Positions 24,017 to 61,946 of a stretch of DNA of 64,000 nucleotides are shown here, piece by piece. Source of the DNA: [Mycobacterium] crassicus (lineage in GTDB: Bacteria > Actinomycetota > Actinomycetes > Mycobacteriales > Mycobacteriaceae); contig NZ_CP084029.1 of assembly GCF_020181615.1 (NCBI RefSeq), forward strand, positions 4,710,837 through 4,774,836, in the 5' to 3' direction. Position numbers and translations under genes: made by a program. The stretch's first letter is position 1. Each line of letters starts with the position of its first letter. The notes below the pieces were generated by a model. The model saw only the letters and a program-made list of their open reading frames with translations, was not told the origin of the DNA and did not search any database.

Positions 24017-24838
24017 ATGGCCGTCAGCACCGCAGGAACCGTCCCGACGTCCGCGGAGCGGATTCGCAGCGCCTGCATCCGCGGTCAGGCACTACTGGCG
24101 ATCGCCGACTCGGCCGACGCCGAGCCGGTCACCGCGCCGGTCTGCCACCTGTTGCCGGACGGATCCCTGGTGATCGCCGTCCCGGCCGGCGACCCGGTCG
24201 CCGACGCTGCCGACACCGAGTCCGGCGTACCGGCGATGCTCGAGTTGACCGACCATTCACCGTTGCGGCTGCGCGAACGGGTGCGCGCACTGGTCTGGAT
24301 CCGTGGCCGGCTGCGGTCGGTACCGGAGCCCGAGATCGTCGCGCTGTTGGACCAGATCGCCGCAGCCGACCCGAATCCAGCTCTGCTGCAGGTGATCTCG
24401 CCGCGTTCCGCGGCCGGGCAATACCGCGCCGGGGACGGCGACATCGGCTACTCCCTGCTGCGCCTCACACCTGAGTCGGCCGTGCTGGCCGATACCACCG
24501 GGGCCGAGTCGGTTGCGGTGGACGAGTTGCTGGCGGCCCGGCCCGACCCGTTCTGCGCGATCGAGGCGCACTGGCTGCAGCACCTGGACTCGGCGCATCC
24601 CGAGCTGGTCGCCCGGCTGGCCACCATCAAGCTGCCGCCGCGGCTGCGCCGCGGACAGACCCGCCCCCTGGGCGTGGACCGCTACGGAATGTGGCTGCGG
24701 GTGGAGAACCTCGACGGTGACCACGACGTCCGGCTGAGCTTCCCGCGGCCGGTCGCCGACGTGCTGAGCCTGAACCGGGCGGTGCGCGCGCTGATGGGCT
24801 GCCCGTTCCTCAACGGACTGCAAGCCCGCCAACGGTAG
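24017..24838 (+). CDS. DUF2470 protein under IdeR control (Rv3839-like)
   Basis: A 273-residue cytosolic protein. The N-terminal two-thirds resembles the split-barrel/HugZ-like fold (SACIRGQALLAIADSADAEPVTAPVCHLLPDGSLVIAVPAGD; MLELTDHSPLRLRERVRALVWIRG). The C-terminal DUF2470 part has AIEAHWLQHLDSAHPELVARLA and LSFPRPVADVLSLNRAVRALMGC. Proteins with this pairing are linked to heme and iron metabolism. ATG at 24017 follows AAAGGG. An IdeR box lies just upstream, so expression should rise under iron limitation. Molecular function unproven. Confidence 0.85.
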   Translation: MAVSTAGTVPTSAERIRSACIRGQALLAIADSADAEPVTAPVCHLLPDGSLVIAVPAGDPVADAADTESGVPAMLELTDHSPLRLRERVRALVWIRGRLRSVPEPEIVALLDQIAAADPNPALLQVISPRSAAGQYRAGDGDIGYSLLRLTPESAVLADTTGAESVAVDELLAARPDPFCAIEAHWLQHLDSAHPELVARLATIKLPPRLRRGQTRPLGVDRYGMWLRVENLDGDHDVRLSFPRPVADVLSLNRAVRALMGCPFLNGLQARQR

Positions 24839-24849
24839 CGCCACCAGTC

Positions 24850-24898
24850 CAGCGGTTCAGCGAGCCTCGACGAAGGAGAGGCGAAGCTGGAACCGCTG
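24850..24898 (+). repeat. Dispersed 49-nt hairpin repeat, copy 1
   Basis: A 49-nt element starting 12 nt after the DUF2470 stop. Its ends form a perfect 9-bp inverted repeat: CAGCGGTTC (24850-24858) with GAACCGCTG (24890-24898). The interior is the purine-rich AGCGAGCCTCGACGAAGGAG... block. A second copy of exactly the same length lies at 60332-60380 inside fusA2, identical at 42 of 49 positions. The right arm can alternatively pair with CAGCGGTT at 24907-24914, giving a competing 8-bp hairpin next to the -10 box of the CPBP gene. Confidence 0.85.
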
Positions 24899-24913
24899 CA
24901 CCAACCCAGCGGT

Positions 24914-24919
24914 TACCGT
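24914..24919 (+). promoter_or_regulatory. -10 box for a leaderless CPBP protease transcript
   Basis: TACCGT is followed by exactly 6 nt and the GTG start at 24926, with no ribosome-binding site. The box directly abuts the inverted repeat CAGCGGTT at 24907-24914, so folding or binding there could affect promoter opening. Confidence 0.55.
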
Positions 24920-24925
24920 GTCGGG

Positions 24926-25678
24926 GTGACCGAGCCGGCGGCCCAGCGACACGCGCTGCGGCTGGAGATCGTCGTGGTACTGGCGGTCACCTACGGGCTC
25001 AGCGCTGTCACCGCCATGCTGCAGTTGGCCGACGCGGTACTGCGTGACCTCAGTGCCCAACGGATCGCCCTAAACCCACGCCGGTCCTACTTCGACGTCA
25101 TCGACCTGGGCCTCAACGCCGCATGGGCGGTGCAGCTCATCGCCTGGGGCGCGTTGGCGGTGTATCTGTTGTGGCGCAGCGGATACGGCCCTGCCCGAAT
25201 CGGGCTCACCCGGCTACCGCGGCGCTCCGATCTGGCCGGCGGCCTGGGCCTGGCGGCACTGATCGGCCTGCCGGGGCTGGGCCTGTACCTGCTGGCGCGC
25301 ACCCTGGGCCTCAACGCCGACGTCGTCCCCGCGGCCATCAGCGACACCTGGTGGCGCGCCCCGATGCTGATCGTGATCGCCTTCGCCAACGGATGGGCCG
25401 AGGAGGTGATCGTCGTCGGCTATCTGCTGACCCGGCTGCGGCAGCTGCGGGTCGCACCCTGGGTGGCGCTGGCCTGTTCGGCCCTGCTCCGCGGGGCCTA
25501 CCACCTCTACCAGGGGTTCGGAGCCGGCCTGGGCAACATCGCCATGGGGCTGGTGTTCGGCTACACCTGGCAGCGCACCGGCCGGCTGTGGCCGCTGATC
25601 CTCGCCCACAGCCTGATCGACACCGTGGCGTTCGTCGGGTACGCGTTGTTCGCCGACAAGCTCGGCTGGCTGCGCTGA
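24926..25678 (+). CDS. CPBP-family intramembrane metalloprotease
   Basis: A 250-residue membrane protein with about six hydrophobic segments (LRLEIVVVLAVTYGLSAVTAML, AVQLIAWGALAVYLLW, LGLAALIGLPGLGLYLLA, and three in the C-terminal half). The CAAX-protease/bacteriocin-processing (CPBP, Abi) motifs are present: AEEVIVVGYLLTRL (EExxxxGYLL), RGAYHLYQG and LAHSLIDT, which supply the Glu and His residues of the intramembrane active site. The substrate is unknown. It is probably leaderless from the TACCGT box, and it is convergent with the PGRS/GH5 gene (13-nt gap). Confidence 0.87.
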   Translation: MTEPAAQRHALRLEIVVVLAVTYGLSAVTAMLQLADAVLRDLSAQRIALNPRRSYFDVIDLGLNAAWAVQLIAWGALAVYLLWRSGYGPARIGLTRLPRRSDLAGGLGLAALIGLPGLGLYLLARTLGLNADVVPAAISDTWWRAPMLIVIAFANGWAEEVIVVGYLLTRLRQLRVAPWVALACSALLRGAYHLYQGFGAGLGNIAMGLVFGYTWQRTGRLWPLILAHSLIDTVAFVGYALFADKLGWLR

Positions 25679-25679
25679 T

Positions 25680-25701
25680 CGCGGGCAGACCTCAGCCCGC
25701 G
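25680..25701. terminator. Short bidirectional hairpin between convergent genes
   Basis: CGCGGGC (25680-25686) and GCCCGCG (25695-25701) form a perfect 7-bp stem with an 8-nt loop spanning the 13-nt gap between the CPBP and PGRS/GH5 stop codons. Likely a shared terminator; there is no T-tract. Confidence 0.5.
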
Positions 25702-28022
25702 GCGCGCGTCACCGTGACGGTGACCGTGCTCGCACCGCCGTTGGATCCGATGACCAGCACCGAGGCGTTGTCCGCCGAAACGACCTGGCCGCCGGTGACG
25801 CTGACCTGGTAGCCGTTCGGGAACTGGATGTCGGGGATCGAGATCTTGGTCTCCGATCCGGCGGCGAAGCTGCCCGAGCCGTCGGCCATCGCCGTGGAGT
25901 AGCTGAACGAGAAGACGCCGTTGGAGAACGACCAAGCACTTGGGATTCCGGCGATCACCTGCGGGTAGGGCTGCGCCAGCGTCGCCACGATCGGCTCGTC
26001 CACGTTGTCGCCGGTCGGCGGCAGGGTGGGGTTGTACACCAGTCGGCCCGTGTCGTTGTAGCCCCAGTAGAGCCAGCCGAACTTGTGCGGGTCGATCGAG
26101 TTCAGCTGGCTGGCGATGGTGTCGATGTTGCCGGTGGCACCGAACTCGGTCACCACCCCCGGGACGCCGTAGTGGTCGACGTACCGCTGAGCGCCGTCCA
26201 TCATCATCCCGTCCCAGATCGAGCAGCCGGTGGAGGTGCCACCGCCCAGGGCGTCGAAGATGCAGTAGTCGTGGAACGCGAAGACGGTGTTCTTGTCCTC
26301 GAGCCCGCCCAGGTGGGTCGCCGCGGTCGCGTTGCCGAACAGCACATTCGGCTCGTAGTACACGGTCGTGTTCGGGTCGACCGACCGGATCGCCGAGGTC
26401 ACCTGGTCGTAGAACGGGGTGAGCGTCTCGCGGTCGAAGTGGGGGTTGCCGAGCAGGCTGGCCAACCACGGCGAGCCGGCCCACGGCTCGTTCATGATCT
26501 CGTAGCCGGCCACCCCCGGCGTGCCACCCATGTAGTCGGCGACGGTCTGCCACATCCGGGCGTAGTGGTTCTGCAGCCCGACGCCGTCGACCTTCTCGTT
26601 GGCCCAGAACGCATCCCAGGCCTGATTCTGCGCGGGGTTGAGGGCGTAGCCGAACGGGAACGGTGCGCTGGTGTCGTTGTCGTCGGGGTTGAACATGGTC
26701 GCCCAGTCCGGTGCGCCATGGCCGCCGATCTCCACGCTGTAGAGGTCCTGGTGCATGTCGAGGATGCTGACGATGCCGTGCGCCTTGAGGGTCTCGATGG
26801 TCTCCTTGACCGACTCCAGGTAGGCGAAGTTGTACACGCCGGGCTGCGGTTCGATCTGGTCCCAGTACAGGCCGAGCCGCACCGCGGTGAATCCGTTGGC
26901 GGCCAGGAACGCCGCGTCGTCGTCGCCGAAGCCGTCGCCACCGGGTGTGAACGGCGCCGACTTGTACACCTGGTTGACGCCCTGCAGGATGACGACCCGG
27001 CCGTCGTGGTCGACGATCCATTTGCCGGCGGTGCCGAGTTCGGCCAGCCCCTTCTCCGGGGCTCCGTCCAGCACGCCGAAGTGGCCGACCGCACCGTGAG
27101 TGCCCAGGGCACCGGCCAGGCCGCCGGCCCCGCCCAGGCCGGGCAGATCTCCCTGGCCCTGGTAGACGCCGTTGCCGGCGTTGCCGCCGTCGCCGCCACC
27201 GCCGAACCAGGCCGAGCCGTTGCCGCCGTCACCACCGTTGCCGCCGAGGTGAGTGCCGTCGCCGCCGGCGCCACCGGTTCCACCGACACCGAGCATCCAC
27301 CCGATCCCGGCACCACCGGCACCACCGATGCCGCCGGTCACCCCGTCGCCGCCGGCGCCACCGGTCCCACCGACGCCCATGTACCAGCCGCCGGCACCGC
27401 CGATGCCCCCGGCGCCGCCCTCGCCGCCGGTGCCACCGACACCGCCGTTGCCGAAGAACCCGGCCGCGCCACCGGCGCCACCGACGCCACCGACCGCGGT
27501 GTTGTCCCAGCCGGCCCCGCCGTCGCCGAACAACCAGCCGCCCGCACCACCGGCGGCATGCTCCTGCGTACCGGCCGCACCGTCACCGATCATCGCGCCC
27601 AAGCCCAGCGCCCCACTGAGCTGGTTGAACCCGTCGACGATCGGCGCCATCCAGGAGCTGCTGACCAAGCTGTCGATGCCGGTGTAGAGCGGGGTGTAGA
27701 CCCAGTCGTGCACCATCCCCGTCAGGTCCGGGGCCAACAGGCTCGGCGATGCGGCCGCCGCCCCGGCCAGCAGTCCGTCCCACTGCGCCGGGCTGAAGAA
27801 CGCCTCCCAGGCGGCCGGGTTGAACACCGCATCCCAGTCCAGCCCGCCGGTCGTCACATCCACGAACGGCGTCAGCGCCTGGTCGAACACGTCGTCGAAG
27901 ACCTCGGCGGACGCCACCGGTGCGGCGGTCAGCGGTGTCACCCCGAACGCCAGGAACGCCCCTACGGCCGTACCCAACCCGACGACGCGACGGTTCCGCT
28001 TGGTGTTCCACCGACGAGTCAT
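25692..28022 (-). CDS. Secreted PGRS-like protein fused to an endoglycoceramidase-like GH5 domain
   Basis: A 776-residue exported protein in three parts. Residues 1-40 are a basic n-region and hydrophobic signal (RRVVGLGTAVGAFLAFGVTPLTAAPVASA). Residues about 40-145 (VFDQALTPFVDVTTGGLDWDAVFNPAAWEAFFSPAQWD) are typical of mycobacterial PGRS-family proteins without a PE domain. Residues about 145-307 are GGxGGxGG repeats. From about 330 there is a GH5 TIM barrel (VVILQGVNQVYKSAPF; LDMHQDLYS; acid/base Glu in YEIMNEPWAG near 511; nucleophile Glu in VVTEFGATG near 627) and a C-terminal beta domain ending in VTVTVTRAAG. LDMHQD, INEPWAG and TEFGATG patterns are those of endoglycoceramidases, which cut the glycan from ceramide. 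ATG at 28022 follows AGAGGT. Confidence 0.87.
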   Translation of the reverse strand: MTRRWNTKRNRRVVGLGTAVGAFLAFGVTPLTAAPVASAEVFDDVFDQALTPFVDVTTGGLDWDAVFNPAAWEAFFSPAQWDGLLAGAAAASPSLLAPDLTGMVHDWVYTPLYTGIDSLVSSSWMAPIVDGFNQLSGALGLGAMIGDGAAGTQEHAAGGAGGWLFGDGGAGWDNTAVGGVGGAGGAAGFFGNGGVGGTGGEGGAGGIGGAGGWYMGVGGTGGAGGDGVTGGIGGAGGAGIGWMLGVGGTGGAGGDGTHLGGNGGDGGNGSAWFGGGGDGGNAGNGVYQGQGDLPGLGGAGGLAGALGTHGAVGHFGVLDGAPEKGLAELGTAGKWIVDHDGRVVILQGVNQVYKSAPFTPGGDGFGDDDAAFLAANGFTAVRLGLYWDQIEPQPGVYNFAYLESVKETIETLKAHGIVSILDMHQDLYSVEIGGHGAPDWATMFNPDDNDTSAPFPFGYALNPAQNQAWDAFWANEKVDGVGLQNHYARMWQTVADYMGGTPGVAGYEIMNEPWAGSPWLASLLGNPHFDRETLTPFYDQVTSAIRSVDPNTTVYYEPNVLFGNATAATHLGGLEDKNTVFAFHDYCIFDALGGGTSTGCSIWDGMMMDGAQRYVDHYGVPGVVTEFGATGNIDTIASQLNSIDPHKFGWLYWGYNDTGRLVYNPTLPPTGDNVDEPIVATLAQPYPQVIAGIPSAWSFSNGVFSFSYSTAMADGSGSFAAGSETKISIPDIQFPNGYQVSVTGGQVVSADNASVLVIGSNGGASTVTVTVTRAAG
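27095..27590 (-). repeat. PGRS-like Gly-Gly-X coding repeat tract
   Basis: GGxGGxGGxG-coding degenerate repeats, rich in CCGCCGGCGCC/ACCGCC on the given strand, make up about 165 residues of the fusion protein. The tract is GC-extreme, and strain-to-strain length variation and assembly errors are likely here. Confidence 0.85.
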
Positions 28023-37540: not shown

Positions 37541-38234
37541 GCCTCATAGGCGCCGCAAGCCGGGCCTGCGCACTGGTCGCCGCCGTCGCCGTCGCCGGTT
37601 CGATCGCCGGTACGGCGCCGGCCTGGGCCCATGTACACGCCAGCAGTCCCGGCGCGGTCCGCGGCAACTTCGCGATGGTCACCTTCGAAGTTCCCAATGA
37701 GTCGCCGACCGGTTCTGCCACAACCGAACTCACCGTGACACTGCCCGATGTGGCCGCGGCGCGCACCGAGACCAAGCCGGGCTGGACCGCTCGGCTGGAC
37801 CGCGACGCCAAGACCGGCGTGGTGCGGTCCGTCACCTGGACCGCGGCACCGGGCGCCGGCATCGGCGCCGACCAGTTCGGGCTGTTCCAGATCAAGATGA
37901 AACTGCCCGACACCGAGACCGTGGACTTCCCTCGGCGCAGGGCTATGCCGATGGGACCGTGGTGCGCTGGGACCAGCCGCCTCCACCCGGCGGCGGCGAG
38001 GCGGAGCACCCGGTGCCCTCGCTGCACCTGGCGAAGGGGCCTGCACAGGCGCCCGAACACCATGCCCAGCACCCGGCGCCGTCGGTCTCGGCAGCACCGG
38101 CACCGACCGATGAGTCGCAGGCCGATGCGCCGCGCGGCGGGCACGCCGACAACCCCGCCCGGCTGCTCGGCGGCGCCGCGCTGCTGGTCTCCGCGCTGGC
38201 CGCCGCAGTCGCCCTGAGCCGGCGGCGGCCATGA
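37537..38234 (+). pseudogene. YcnI-like copper protein, frameshifted
   Basis: YcnI (DUF1775) proteins are exported copper chaperones. The first frame (37537 to about 37932) encodes a signal peptide ending AWA, mature His1 (HVHASSPGAV, a copper-brace residue) and the DUF1775 domain down to KLPDTETVDFP. The reading frame then changes: the continuation GYADGTVVRWDQPP and the C-terminal helix ARLLGGAALLVSALAAAVALSRRRP lie in the +2 frame, up to the stop at 38232-38234. One missing base near 37930-37938 restores the whole protein. It may be a sequencing error or a recent mutation. Flanking ATGA overlaps on both sides argue that the intact gene is ancestral. Confidence 0.85.
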
Positions 38235-59792: not shown

Positions 59793-61946
59793 ATGGCAGA
59801 TAAGACGACCACGCCGAGAAACGGTGCCGCCCCCACCGCGGCCGATCCGGCCGCCATTCGCAACGTCGTGTTGATCGGCCCGCCCGGCTCCGGCAAGACC
59901 ACCCTGGTCGAGGCGATGCTGGTGTCCTCCGGAGTGCTGCCCCGGGCCGGCTCGATCATCGACGGCAGCACGGTCTGCGACTACGACGACGTGGAGATCC
60001 GTCAGCAGCGTTCGGTCGGAGTCGCCTGCGCGTCGCTGGCGCACGAGGGCGTCAAGATCAACCTGATCGACACGCCGGGTTACGCCGACTTCATCGGCGA
60101 GGTCCGGGCCGGACTGCGCGCCGCCGACAGCGCCCTGTTCGTCGTCGCAGCCAACGAGGACATCGACGACGCGACCACGGCACTCTGGCAGGAATGCAGC
60201 CGGATCGCCATGCCGCGTGCGGTGGTGGTCACCAAACTGGACCACGCCCGGGCCGATTACCCCGCCAGCCTGGCCGCCGCGCGGGCAGCTTTCGGTGCGA
60301 AGGTGATGCCGCTGTACCTGCCGATCGGGGCCGACGGTTCAGCGAGGCTCGACGAAGGAGAGGCGAAGCCGGGACCGTCGCGTGAACCCGCCGGCCTGGT
60401 CGCGCTACTGACAACCGAGCAGTGCCAGGCGGCCGATGCCGAGCTGCGACGCGGCGAGCTGATCGAGGCGATCATCGAGGAGTCCGAGGACGAGTCGCTG
60501 CTGGAGCGCTACCTGGGCGGCGAACAGATCGACCAGGTGGTGCTCACCGGCGATTTGGAGCGGGCCGTCGCACGCGGTTCCTTCTTTCCGGTCATCCCGG
60601 CGTGCAGCAGCTCCGGCGTCGGCATCTCCGAATTGCTCGGGGTCATCACCGCCGGATTCCCCTCCCCACCGGAGCATCGGCTTCCGGAGGCCTTCACCCC
60701 CGACGGCGTGGAGCGCTCCGGTCTCAGTTGCGACCCGACCGGACCGCTGCTGGCCGAGGTGGTCAGGACGACTTCGGACCCCTACGTCGGCCGGGTCAGC
60801 CTGGTTCGGGTGTTCTCCGGAACCATCAAGCCCGACAGCGGAATTCATGTCAGTGGGCATTGCACCGGATTCTTCGGCGAGGCCAGTGGCCACAGCGACC
60901 ACGACGAGGACGACCGGATCGGGGCGTTAGCGTTTCCGCTCGGGAGACATCAGCGGCCGGCCACCGCGGTGATGGCCGGCGACATCTGCACGGTCGGCCG
61001 GCTCAGTCATGCCGAGACCGGAGACACCCTGTCCGACAAGGCCGAACCGCTGGTGTGCAAACCCTGGTCGATGCCCGACCCGCTGCTGCCGGTCGCCGTC
61101 ATCCCGCATGCCAAGACCGACGAGGACAAGCTGGCCGTCGGGTTGGCCCGGCTCGCCGCCGAGGACCCGAGCCTGCGAATCGAGCGGAACCCGGAGACCC
61201 ACCAGACCGTGTTGTGGTGCATGGGCGAGGCGCACTCGGGCATCGTGCTCGACACGCTGGCCAATCGTTACGCGGTGGCGGTCGACACCGTCGCTTTGCG
61301 GGTGGCACTGCGGGAAACGTTCGGCACCAAGGCGAAAGGCCACGGTCGACACGTCAAACAGTCCGGCGGCCACGGGCAGTACGCCGTATGCGATATCACG
61401 GTGGAGCCGTTGGCACAGGGTTCGGGTTTCGAGTTCGTCGACCGCGTGGTCGGCGGCGCGGTACCCCGCCAGTTCATCCCCAGCGTGGAGAAGGGCGTCC
61501 AAGCACAGATGGAGCGGGGACTCACCGGGGTGAACGGGTATCCGGTCGTCGACATCCGGGTCAGTCTGCTCGACGGCAAGGCGCACAGCGTCGATTCCTC
61601 GGACTTCGCCTTCCAGATGGCCGGTGCTGCAGCGCTGCGCGACGCCGCCACCACCGGCCGGGTTCAGCTGCTCGAGCCGATCGACGACGTCACGGTACTG
61701 ATACCGGACGACCTCGTCGGCACGGTGATGGGCGATCTGTCCGCCCGGCGCGCACGGGTGCTGGGCACCGATAAAGTCGGCTCCGACCGCACGTGTGTGA
61801 AAGCAGAAGTGCCGCAGACCGAGCTGATCCGGTATGCGGTCGACCTGCGCTCGCTGACGCACGGGGCCGGCTCGTTCACCCGCGGTTTCGCTCGCTATGA
61901 ACCGCTTCCGGAGTCCGCGGCGGCGCACGCCGCCAACTCCGCATGA
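59793..61946 (+). CDS. fusA2: Elongation factor G-like protein EF-G2
   Basis: A 717-residue translational GTPase paralogue of EF-G. GTPase motifs: G1 GPPGSGKTTLVEAML near residue 30, G3 NLIDTPGYADFIGE and G4 VVTKLDHARADY. Domains II-V follow (GRVSLVRVFSGTIKPDSG; LWCMGEAHSGIVLDTL; GHGQYAVCDITVEPL; DLSARRARVLGTDKVG). EF-G2 of mycobacteria lacks clear translocase activity, and its role is unsettled. ATG at 59793 follows AGGAG. Unusual feature: the 49-nt dispersed repeat at 60332-60380 codes for GSARLDEGEAKPGPSRE in a loop of the G domain. Confidence 0.93.
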   Translation: MADKTTTPRNGAAPTAADPAAIRNVVLIGPPGSGKTTLVEAMLVSSGVLPRAGSIIDGSTVCDYDDVEIRQQRSVGVACASLAHEGVKINLIDTPGYADFIGEVRAGLRAADSALFVVAANEDIDDATTALWQECSRIAMPRAVVVTKLDHARADYPASLAAARAAFGAKVMPLYLPIGADGSARLDEGEAKPGPSREPAGLVALLTTEQCQAADAELRRGELIEAIIEESEDESLLERYLGGEQIDQVVLTGDLERAVARGSFFPVIPACSSSGVGISELLGVITAGFPSPPEHRLPEAFTPDGVERSGLSCDPTGPLLAEVVRTTSDPYVGRVSLVRVFSGTIKPDSGIHVSGHCTGFFGEASGHSDHDEDDRIGALAFPLGRHQRPATAVMAGDICTVGRLSHAETGDTLSDKAEPLVCKPWSMPDPLLPVAVIPHAKTDEDKLAVGLARLAAEDPSLRIERNPETHQTVLWCMGEAHSGIVLDTLANRYAVAVDTVALRVALRETFGTKAKGHGRHVKQSGGHGQYAVCDITVEPLAQGSGFEFVDRVVGGAVPRQFIPSVEKGVQAQMERGLTGVNGYPVVDIRVSLLDGKAHSVDSSDFAFQMAGAAALRDAATTGRVQLLEPIDDVTVLIPDDLVGTVMGDLSARRARVLGTDKVGSDRTCVKAEVPQTELIRYAVDLRSLTHGAGSFTRGFARYEPLPESAAAHAANSA
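60332..60380 (+). repeat. Dispersed 49-nt hairpin repeat, copy 2 (inside fusA2)
   Basis: Same length as copy 1 (24850-24898) and identical at 42 of 49 positions. The end arms CGACGGTTC (60332-60340) and GGACCGTCG (60372-60380) pair over 9 bp with one G-T wobble. Relative to copy 1, stem positions 2 and 3 and their partners 48 and 47 have changed together (A-T to G-C, G-C to A-T), so pairing is kept. The reading frame of fusA2 runs through it without a stop. Confidence 0.85.

Follow-up and report, generated by a model that had tools for sequence, protein, structure and literature searches.

A 57-nt palindromic repeat of the Mycolicibacter group, dispersed between genes and in frame within predicted genes

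Palindromic repeats that lie in frame inside unrelated genes, where they encode the same peptide, are described in the accessible parts of two reports from Rickettsia (the Rickettsia palindromic elements, RPE), Wolbachia and Methanocaldococcus (PMC10969869, PMC2996958). One of these reports, as excerpted, also presents the PARCEL amphipathic repeat, a tandem palindromic coding repeat that encodes repeated protein domains (PMC2996958). The MIRU-VNTR of Mycobacterium tuberculosis are given in the excerpted account as tandem repeats of 46-101 bp found chromosome-wide, some with variable copy number (PMC3914561), and REP/RAYT systems, in the section available, carry the tetranucleotide GTAG or CGTC at one terminus (PMC3733652). 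Two hairpins in the window, as we call the whole 64,000-nt stretch of DNA analysed, can be set beside these systems. We consider it probable that both belong to a palindromic repeat, selfish in nature and typical of the Mycolicibacter (M. terrae) group, whose in-frame units would be tolerated as linkers and which would spread by an enzyme-free, homology-guided route.

The preliminary description had reported two 49-nt elements, identical at 42 positions and closed by a 9-bp outer stem with compensatory changes, and both the elements and the stem are borne out by the sequence. The hairpin of copy 1 occupies 24850-24898 (+ strand; arms CAGCGGTTC and GAACCGCTG, inner stem GCCTC/GAGGC) and that of copy 2 occupies 60332-60380 (+ strand; arms CGACGGTTC and GGACCGTCG). 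Compared by eye, they differ at seven of the 49 positions (2, 3, 16, 39, 42, 47 and 48). At two pairs both partners differ: copy 1 has A-T at 2-48 and G-C at 3-47, and copy 2 has G-C and A-T, respectively; the change at position 42 turns a T-A pair into a T-G wobble. Copy 1 is predicted to fold into 12 outer pairs (with one bulge) plus the inner stem, and the inner part of copy 2 is weaker. The + strand folding energies are -29.7 kcal/mol for copy 1 (z -5.7; none of 200 shuffles as low) and -22.7 kcal/mol for copy 2 (z -2.6; one of 200), and on the - strand the fold of copy 2 falls within the ordinary range (z -1.25; 21 of 200 shuffles as low). A 22-nt core matches the window twice, with 0.00 matches expected. 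Beyond what had been described, copy 2 lies in frame in a gene, the repeat unit measures 57 nt, and there are dozens more copies. The full unit of copy 1, hairpin plus tail, spans 24848-24904 (+ strand; phase taken from tandem arrays), and that of copy 2 spans 60330-60386 (+ strand) and reads ADGSARLDEGEAKPGPSRE within an EF-G-like protein. Copy 1 is bracketed by a direct repeat of its left arm, CCAGCGGTT, at 24849-24857 and 24906-24914 (+ strand), the latter being either the partial start of a next unit or a target duplication.

Upstream of copy 1 is a gene for a DUF2470 protein (24017-24838, + strand; Pfam, codon-usage caller) that ends 9 nt before the unit, and downstream is a gene of the Rce1-like CAAX protease family (24926-25678, + strand) that starts 21 nt after it. 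Among 17 aligned genomes, the copy 1 type is present at this site only in the genome of the window (G000); in two others (G150 and G086) its place is taken by a hairpin repeat of another kind, termed type B below, and no repeat was seen in the remaining 14. The sequence AGCGG followed by C or T was counted by eye at five of nine aligned empty Mycolicibacter sites of copy 1. Elsewhere in the window, a gene on the - strand (25692-27977) has a PGRS-like glycine-rich half, and the second half of its product is presumably a glycoside hydrolase domain. Positions 37543-37568 hold an empty site at CATGAGCC, the M. sinensis E1572 counterpart of which (L069) carries a three-unit array.

At genome scale, the proposed repeat family of many copies was recovered. 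In the 4.87-Mb genome, 83 places match the core with up to three mismatches and none matches the reversed control, a number on which a chance pair was rejected; a covariance model has 94 matches. In G000 the copies stand alone or follow one another head to tail in arrays, at steps of 55-58 nt, and from these we read the consensus unit CCCGGCGGTTCAGCGAGGCTCGACGAAGGAGAGGCGAAGCTGGAACCGCCGCATGAA. The same model matched G150 (106 times), G016 (18), G175 (13) and G117 (once) and none of the 14 other genomes searched alongside them; in a further set of 58 genomes, five of them shared with the first set, it matched four. Allowing two mismatches, the core is found in 16 of 198 genomes of the GTDB genus, 12 with 15-145 copies, which we refer to as Mycolicibacter-type, and four with one. 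The match in G117 (L245; G117:C1:1487282-1487333) is a single classic 41-nt unit in a 6.0-Mb genome with no other core match, possibly the result of horizontal transfer. Among named species the exact core occurs in at least 107 stretches, and all 80 records listed are Mycolicibacter or Mycobacterium sp.; because these loci were fetched with the exact core pattern, they favour the consensus type. Phage and plasmid collections gave no match (E 0.001, one 131-base query), and a phage- or plasmid-borne element was rejected. In the open-licence PMC literature, 19-base forms of the core and pieces of the peptide had no exact match, and none of the titles retrieved there named such a repeat in the Mycolicibacter group.

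Collected over these genomes, 182 arrays reduced to 164 unique ones after removal of 18 that duplicated a place already counted or lay too close to the end of a locus. Single units make up 95 of them, and 45, 19, three and two arrays have two, three, four and five units respectively. Flanks long enough to assign context were available for 155 (nine dropped), which were merged by flanking homology into 116 distinct sites, two of them of mixed context. Where genomes share a site, array size varies from one genome to another in 16 of 24 cases, so that the arrays might serve as typing markers for the group. A replication-strand bias was rejected for G000, with 23 arrays on the leading and 28 on the lagging side (hand count, one chance match omitted; origin taken as the contig start and terminus as the contig middle).

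The family extends beyond the classic unit. A pattern fixing only the outer parts was found in 32 of 396 genomes (control, 0), of which 20 have 8-74 matches, three have 5-6 and nine have 1-2. From GGTT to the closing CC, one locus from each of 30 of these genomes measured 41 nt (21 loci), 50 nt (one), 62 nt (seven) or 63 nt (one); the lengths 41, 50 and 62 differ by multiples of three, and 63 does not. The longer units keep the same outer parts with a different apical hairpin between them. At the loci examined, the half-sites are spaced by 30 in 238 places, by 39 in eight and by 51 in 10, and by 14, 29 and 52 once each. One longer copy (L247, in G059) lies, as judged by eye, in the same reading frame inside a protein sequence, which from its motifs we take to be a UvrD/PcrA-like helicase. 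Also seen was a related family, again tandem, in which the unit measures 66 bp and the apical hairpin is longer (G175, L246, L249-L260). The type B repeat has units of ∼55 bp (e.g. GCGGTGATCGCGAGCGCGGCGGAGCCGGGCGAAGCGGGTCACCGC) and was observed at L193 (G150), L201 (G086), L075, L088, L136, L143, L163 and L074, with 14 matches, some doubtful, in the loci examined. It resembles the present repeat in its unit of ∼55 bp, its inverted ends, a GCGAG...GCGAAGC-like inner motif and tandem copies at several loci, but differs in its arms (e.g. GCGGTGA/TCACCGC) and apical part.

The stem is preserved across the family as had been suggested from two copies, with covariation in excess of all 500 shuffles. 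In 107 distinct first units of the 57-nt class, 91.9% of cells are paired and nine of 17 pairs have changed on both sides; two-sided changes fill 33 cells, compared with 10.7 in shuffles, a value reached by none of the 500. The alignments A1 and A2 (71 and 54 units) were hand-picked for diversity out of 126. In the 54 units, 91.8% of cells are paired, as against 26-45% for slid structures, eight of 17 pairs are two-sided, and no shuffle out of 500 reached the observed value on any measure. A second class of units, one base shorter on both arms, was omitted because an ungapped alignment puts them out of register (17 of 71 rows; 19 of 126 in the larger count); this paired shortening is itself a coordinated change. 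The inner stem is the weaker part, since pair 16-32 is unpaired in 33 of the 54 units. In L006, L009, L027 and L045 the CAGCGG arms go together with further shared variants; we read these copies as a subfamily rather than as independent copies of each target, and an origin of the arms by copying from each target was rejected.

Copy 2 is an in-frame insert in the gene of an EF-G-like translation factor of 717 aa (59793-61946, + strand; Pfam GTP_EFTU, EFG_III, EFG_IV and EFG_C). It is placed after the stretch KVMPLYLPIG, with which a strand of the G domain presumably ends. The insert is common to G000 and G150 and is missing from all eight other Mycolicibacter-type orthologues and both outgroup orthologues aligned. 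The closest PDB chain to the host, 9k0z_7 (1092 bits), has by eye no GSARLDEGEAK-like stretch at the place of the insert, where the pairwise alignment is unreliable. In G150, a second and apparently broken EF-G-like copy (G150:C1:5120843-5121480) lies ∼54 kb from the intact one.

Copy 2 is not alone in its position. With genes called by a small codon-usage caller, so that all ORFs are predictions, 73 of the 155 arrays are genic (64 sense, nine antisense) and 82 intergenic; by distinct site, 58 are intergenic, 49 genic sense and nine genic antisense. At 44 of the 49 sense sites the repeat is read in one frame, encoding 19-mers like PGGSARLDEGEAKLEPPHE. Relative to the other open frame, this frame is used in a ratio of 57:2 arrays, as against 55:19 in chance targets (p 0.0005), or 44:2 by distinct sites (p 0.003). 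The antisense frame with a stop is occupied in none of nine cases, compared with 52 of 89 chance targets (p 0.0007); the chance targets were counted from two 7-mers in 64 kb. The sense bias persists after stop-bearing frames are discounted (p 0.002, by sites). Within G000 alone there are 17 sense, five antisense and 29 intergenic arrays, and a frame preference of 14:1 is not significant (p 0.17). In 53 arrays the 19-mer lies within ORFs, and it is missing in paired empty sites (e.g. those of L054, L081, L037, L006, L087, L078 and L060). A partner is listed for 12 of the 53, and in 11 of these pairs the length difference is divisible by three; L051 (56), set against a remote partner, departs from this. 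By Pfam, ten hosts are an Rv0428c-like acetyltransferase, an enoyl-CoA hydratase, an alpha/beta hydrolase, a WS/DGAT acyltransferase, an NAD(P)H-hydrate dehydratase, a 2-oxoglutarate dehydrogenase, an acetyl-CoA synthetase-like protein, another AMP-binding enzyme, an NRPS-like protein and a pyridine-nucleotide oxidoreductase.

Comparison with relatives revealed sites that are empty, in line with the mobile or structural family that had been suggested. An empty or shorter counterpart exists for 32 of the 164 arrays, the cleanest filled/empty pairs being L054/L234, L058/L244, L011/L226 and L081/L116. Nine of the 32 length differences are exact multiples of 57 nt (seven single units of 57, one triple of 171 and one quadruple of 228); the other 23 pairs differ by 41 to 170 nt, and some of their partners are remote. 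At L013, L033 and L052 the partner retains an apparent remnant (tail), which indicates loss rather than gain. We compared the unit boundary with 14 empty sites, hand-picked as readable, in several of which the best match is out of register with the break. The longest run was 5.86, as against 4.89 in random DNA (z 3.5; reversed control, 4.86); stretches overlapping the boundary gave z 2.1 to 3.4, and non-spanning stretches z -1.2 to 0.6. The edges of 140 arrays are ragged, on the left mostly at -10 to +3 of the unit start and on the right mostly 0 to +9 past the end. Short flanking duplications occur at many sites and vary in length, in place of a target-site duplication of fixed size.

The unit of ∼57 nt has an outer stem of 12 pairs, an apical hairpin that varies and a short tail that leads into the beginning of the one that follows. 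Units lie singly or in tandem runs, between and within genes, and in the reading that we propose the runs grow and shrink in place. A unit landing in the used frame may add a tolerated linker of 19 residues and survive, 57 being a multiple of three and one frame being both open and hydrophilic; copies by which a stop is introduced would be lost. We are less sure of the route of spread. The repeat may have no enzyme of its own, and a strand with a boundary-like sequence (CATGARCCCGGCGGTT) could pair with an existing copy or array, copy one or more units and then return. The unit-length steps, the boundary homology, the ragged edges and the arrays of near-identical units would fit homology-guided copying followed by tandem expansion. 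Tentatively, replication or repair strands that end in a few boundary bases might switch to an existing copy, copy one 57-nt unit or more and switch back, and a hairpin that is divisible by three and free of stops might provide a steady source of new linkers in mycobacteria; we regard this as possible.

The inverted ends, the discrete unit, the empty sites and the short flanking duplications at many sites would also suit a miniature element that depends for its movement on a transposase or recombinase from another locus, in the manner of a MITE or of REP/RAYT. We think this rather unlikely, given that edges and duplications are variable and that the Y1 (RAYT) transposase that the preliminary description had advised looking for was found in none of the six Mycolicibacter-type genomes searched. 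That search was positive in two of 12 genomes overall (nine matches in the related G002 and one in G105) and its control in five of 14, and mobilization by Y1/RAYT was rejected. Partnerless half-sites (40 listed of 75 on the left, and 30 of 30 on the right) were, as judged by eye, shorter-class units, incomplete units or matches due to chance, and at the loci examined none looked by eye like the terminus of a longer element. A recombinase of another kind possibly drives the spread, the transposase search having been one for the Y1 family. The small non-autonomous mobile or structural family originally envisaged is supported by the copies, the covariation and the empty sites, with a correction on two points, the Y1 transposase and the duplications.

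A hairpin acting as RNA or DNA (a terminator, mRNA stabilizer or regulator) and selected at its sites would likewise show stem covariation. It would also agree with an excess of G-U over A-C type cells on the strand read here (60 versus 21) and with the position of the 42 intergenic arrays that follow a gene of the same direction: 15 start 0-3 nt past the stop codon of that gene and 12 contain the stop 13-16 nt inside. However, the wobble asymmetry comes mostly from one pair (27 versus 19 without pairs 8-42 and 16-32), and as a test for the active strand it is only suggestive. The sites moreover differ among close relatives, half of them lie in genes, and Rfam gives no family at gathering score within the window; in 24800-24960 there is one sub-threshold match, to mir-203, which scores 18.6 bits where 65 would be required, and a known Rfam family was rejected. 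A functional hairpin is therefore, in our judgement, improbable. The short class of units with TTAG is distributed over four genic and 14 intergenic places, compared with 69 and 68 for the long class (p 0.04). The frame common to 44 of the 49 sense sites might instead point to a peptide module conserved for protein function rather than to a DNA element. We find this very hard to credit: the stem is conserved at the DNA level, the ten named hosts belong to different families, and relatives have insert-free orthologues. A conserved protein-coding motif, named at the outset as a way to explain the copies away, does not explain them because 58 of the 116 sites are intergenic, the other 58 being in genes. 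A selfish repeat, probably tolerated in frame, is the reading that we retain.

In-gene palindromes are reported, in the sources as excerpted, from Rickettsia, Wolbachia and a methanogen (PMC10969869, PMC2996958); the present one comes from actinobacteria and was sampled here at 116 sites. With the related genomes, which are many, and the empty sites, which are clean, one could measure how insertions arise and which of them are tolerated. Central proteins are possibly altered, among them the predicted EF-G-like factor, 2-oxoglutarate dehydrogenase and acetyl-CoA synthetase-like enzyme.

REP elements and REPINs are likewise short, palindromic and dispersed, but the consensus of the Mycolicibacter repeat has neither GTAG nor CGTC at either end, no Y1 was found, and its arrays are direct, head to tail. 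PARCEL, as far as the excerpt describes it, shares the palindromic coding unit in tandem; the Mycolicibacter unit, in contrast, interrupts otherwise ordinary proteins. MIRUs are placed at stop/start overlaps and are not known to have dyad symmetry; they are reportedly intergenic (Supply 1997, cited in PMC3914561). The Mycolicibacter repeat is a strong palindrome and has 58 of its 116 sites inside predicted genes. What it shares with the MIRU-VNTR, as these are outlined in the part available, is a tandem unit within 46-101 bp at tens of loci, with 95 of 164 arrays here being single units. The RPE, as portrayed in the accessible text, are palindromic and dispersed, lie in frame in unrelated ORFs and encode one peptide, all as here, where the ORFs are predicted and sites are empty in relatives; by description, their unit is ∼150 nt rather than 57 nt, and head-to-tail arrays and an actinobacterial host are particular to the present repeat. 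Collectively, and claiming membership in neither group, we suggest from these descriptions that the repeat resembles the RPE in its in-frame, palindromic character and the MIRU-VNTR in its short, arrayed units, and may work as they do.
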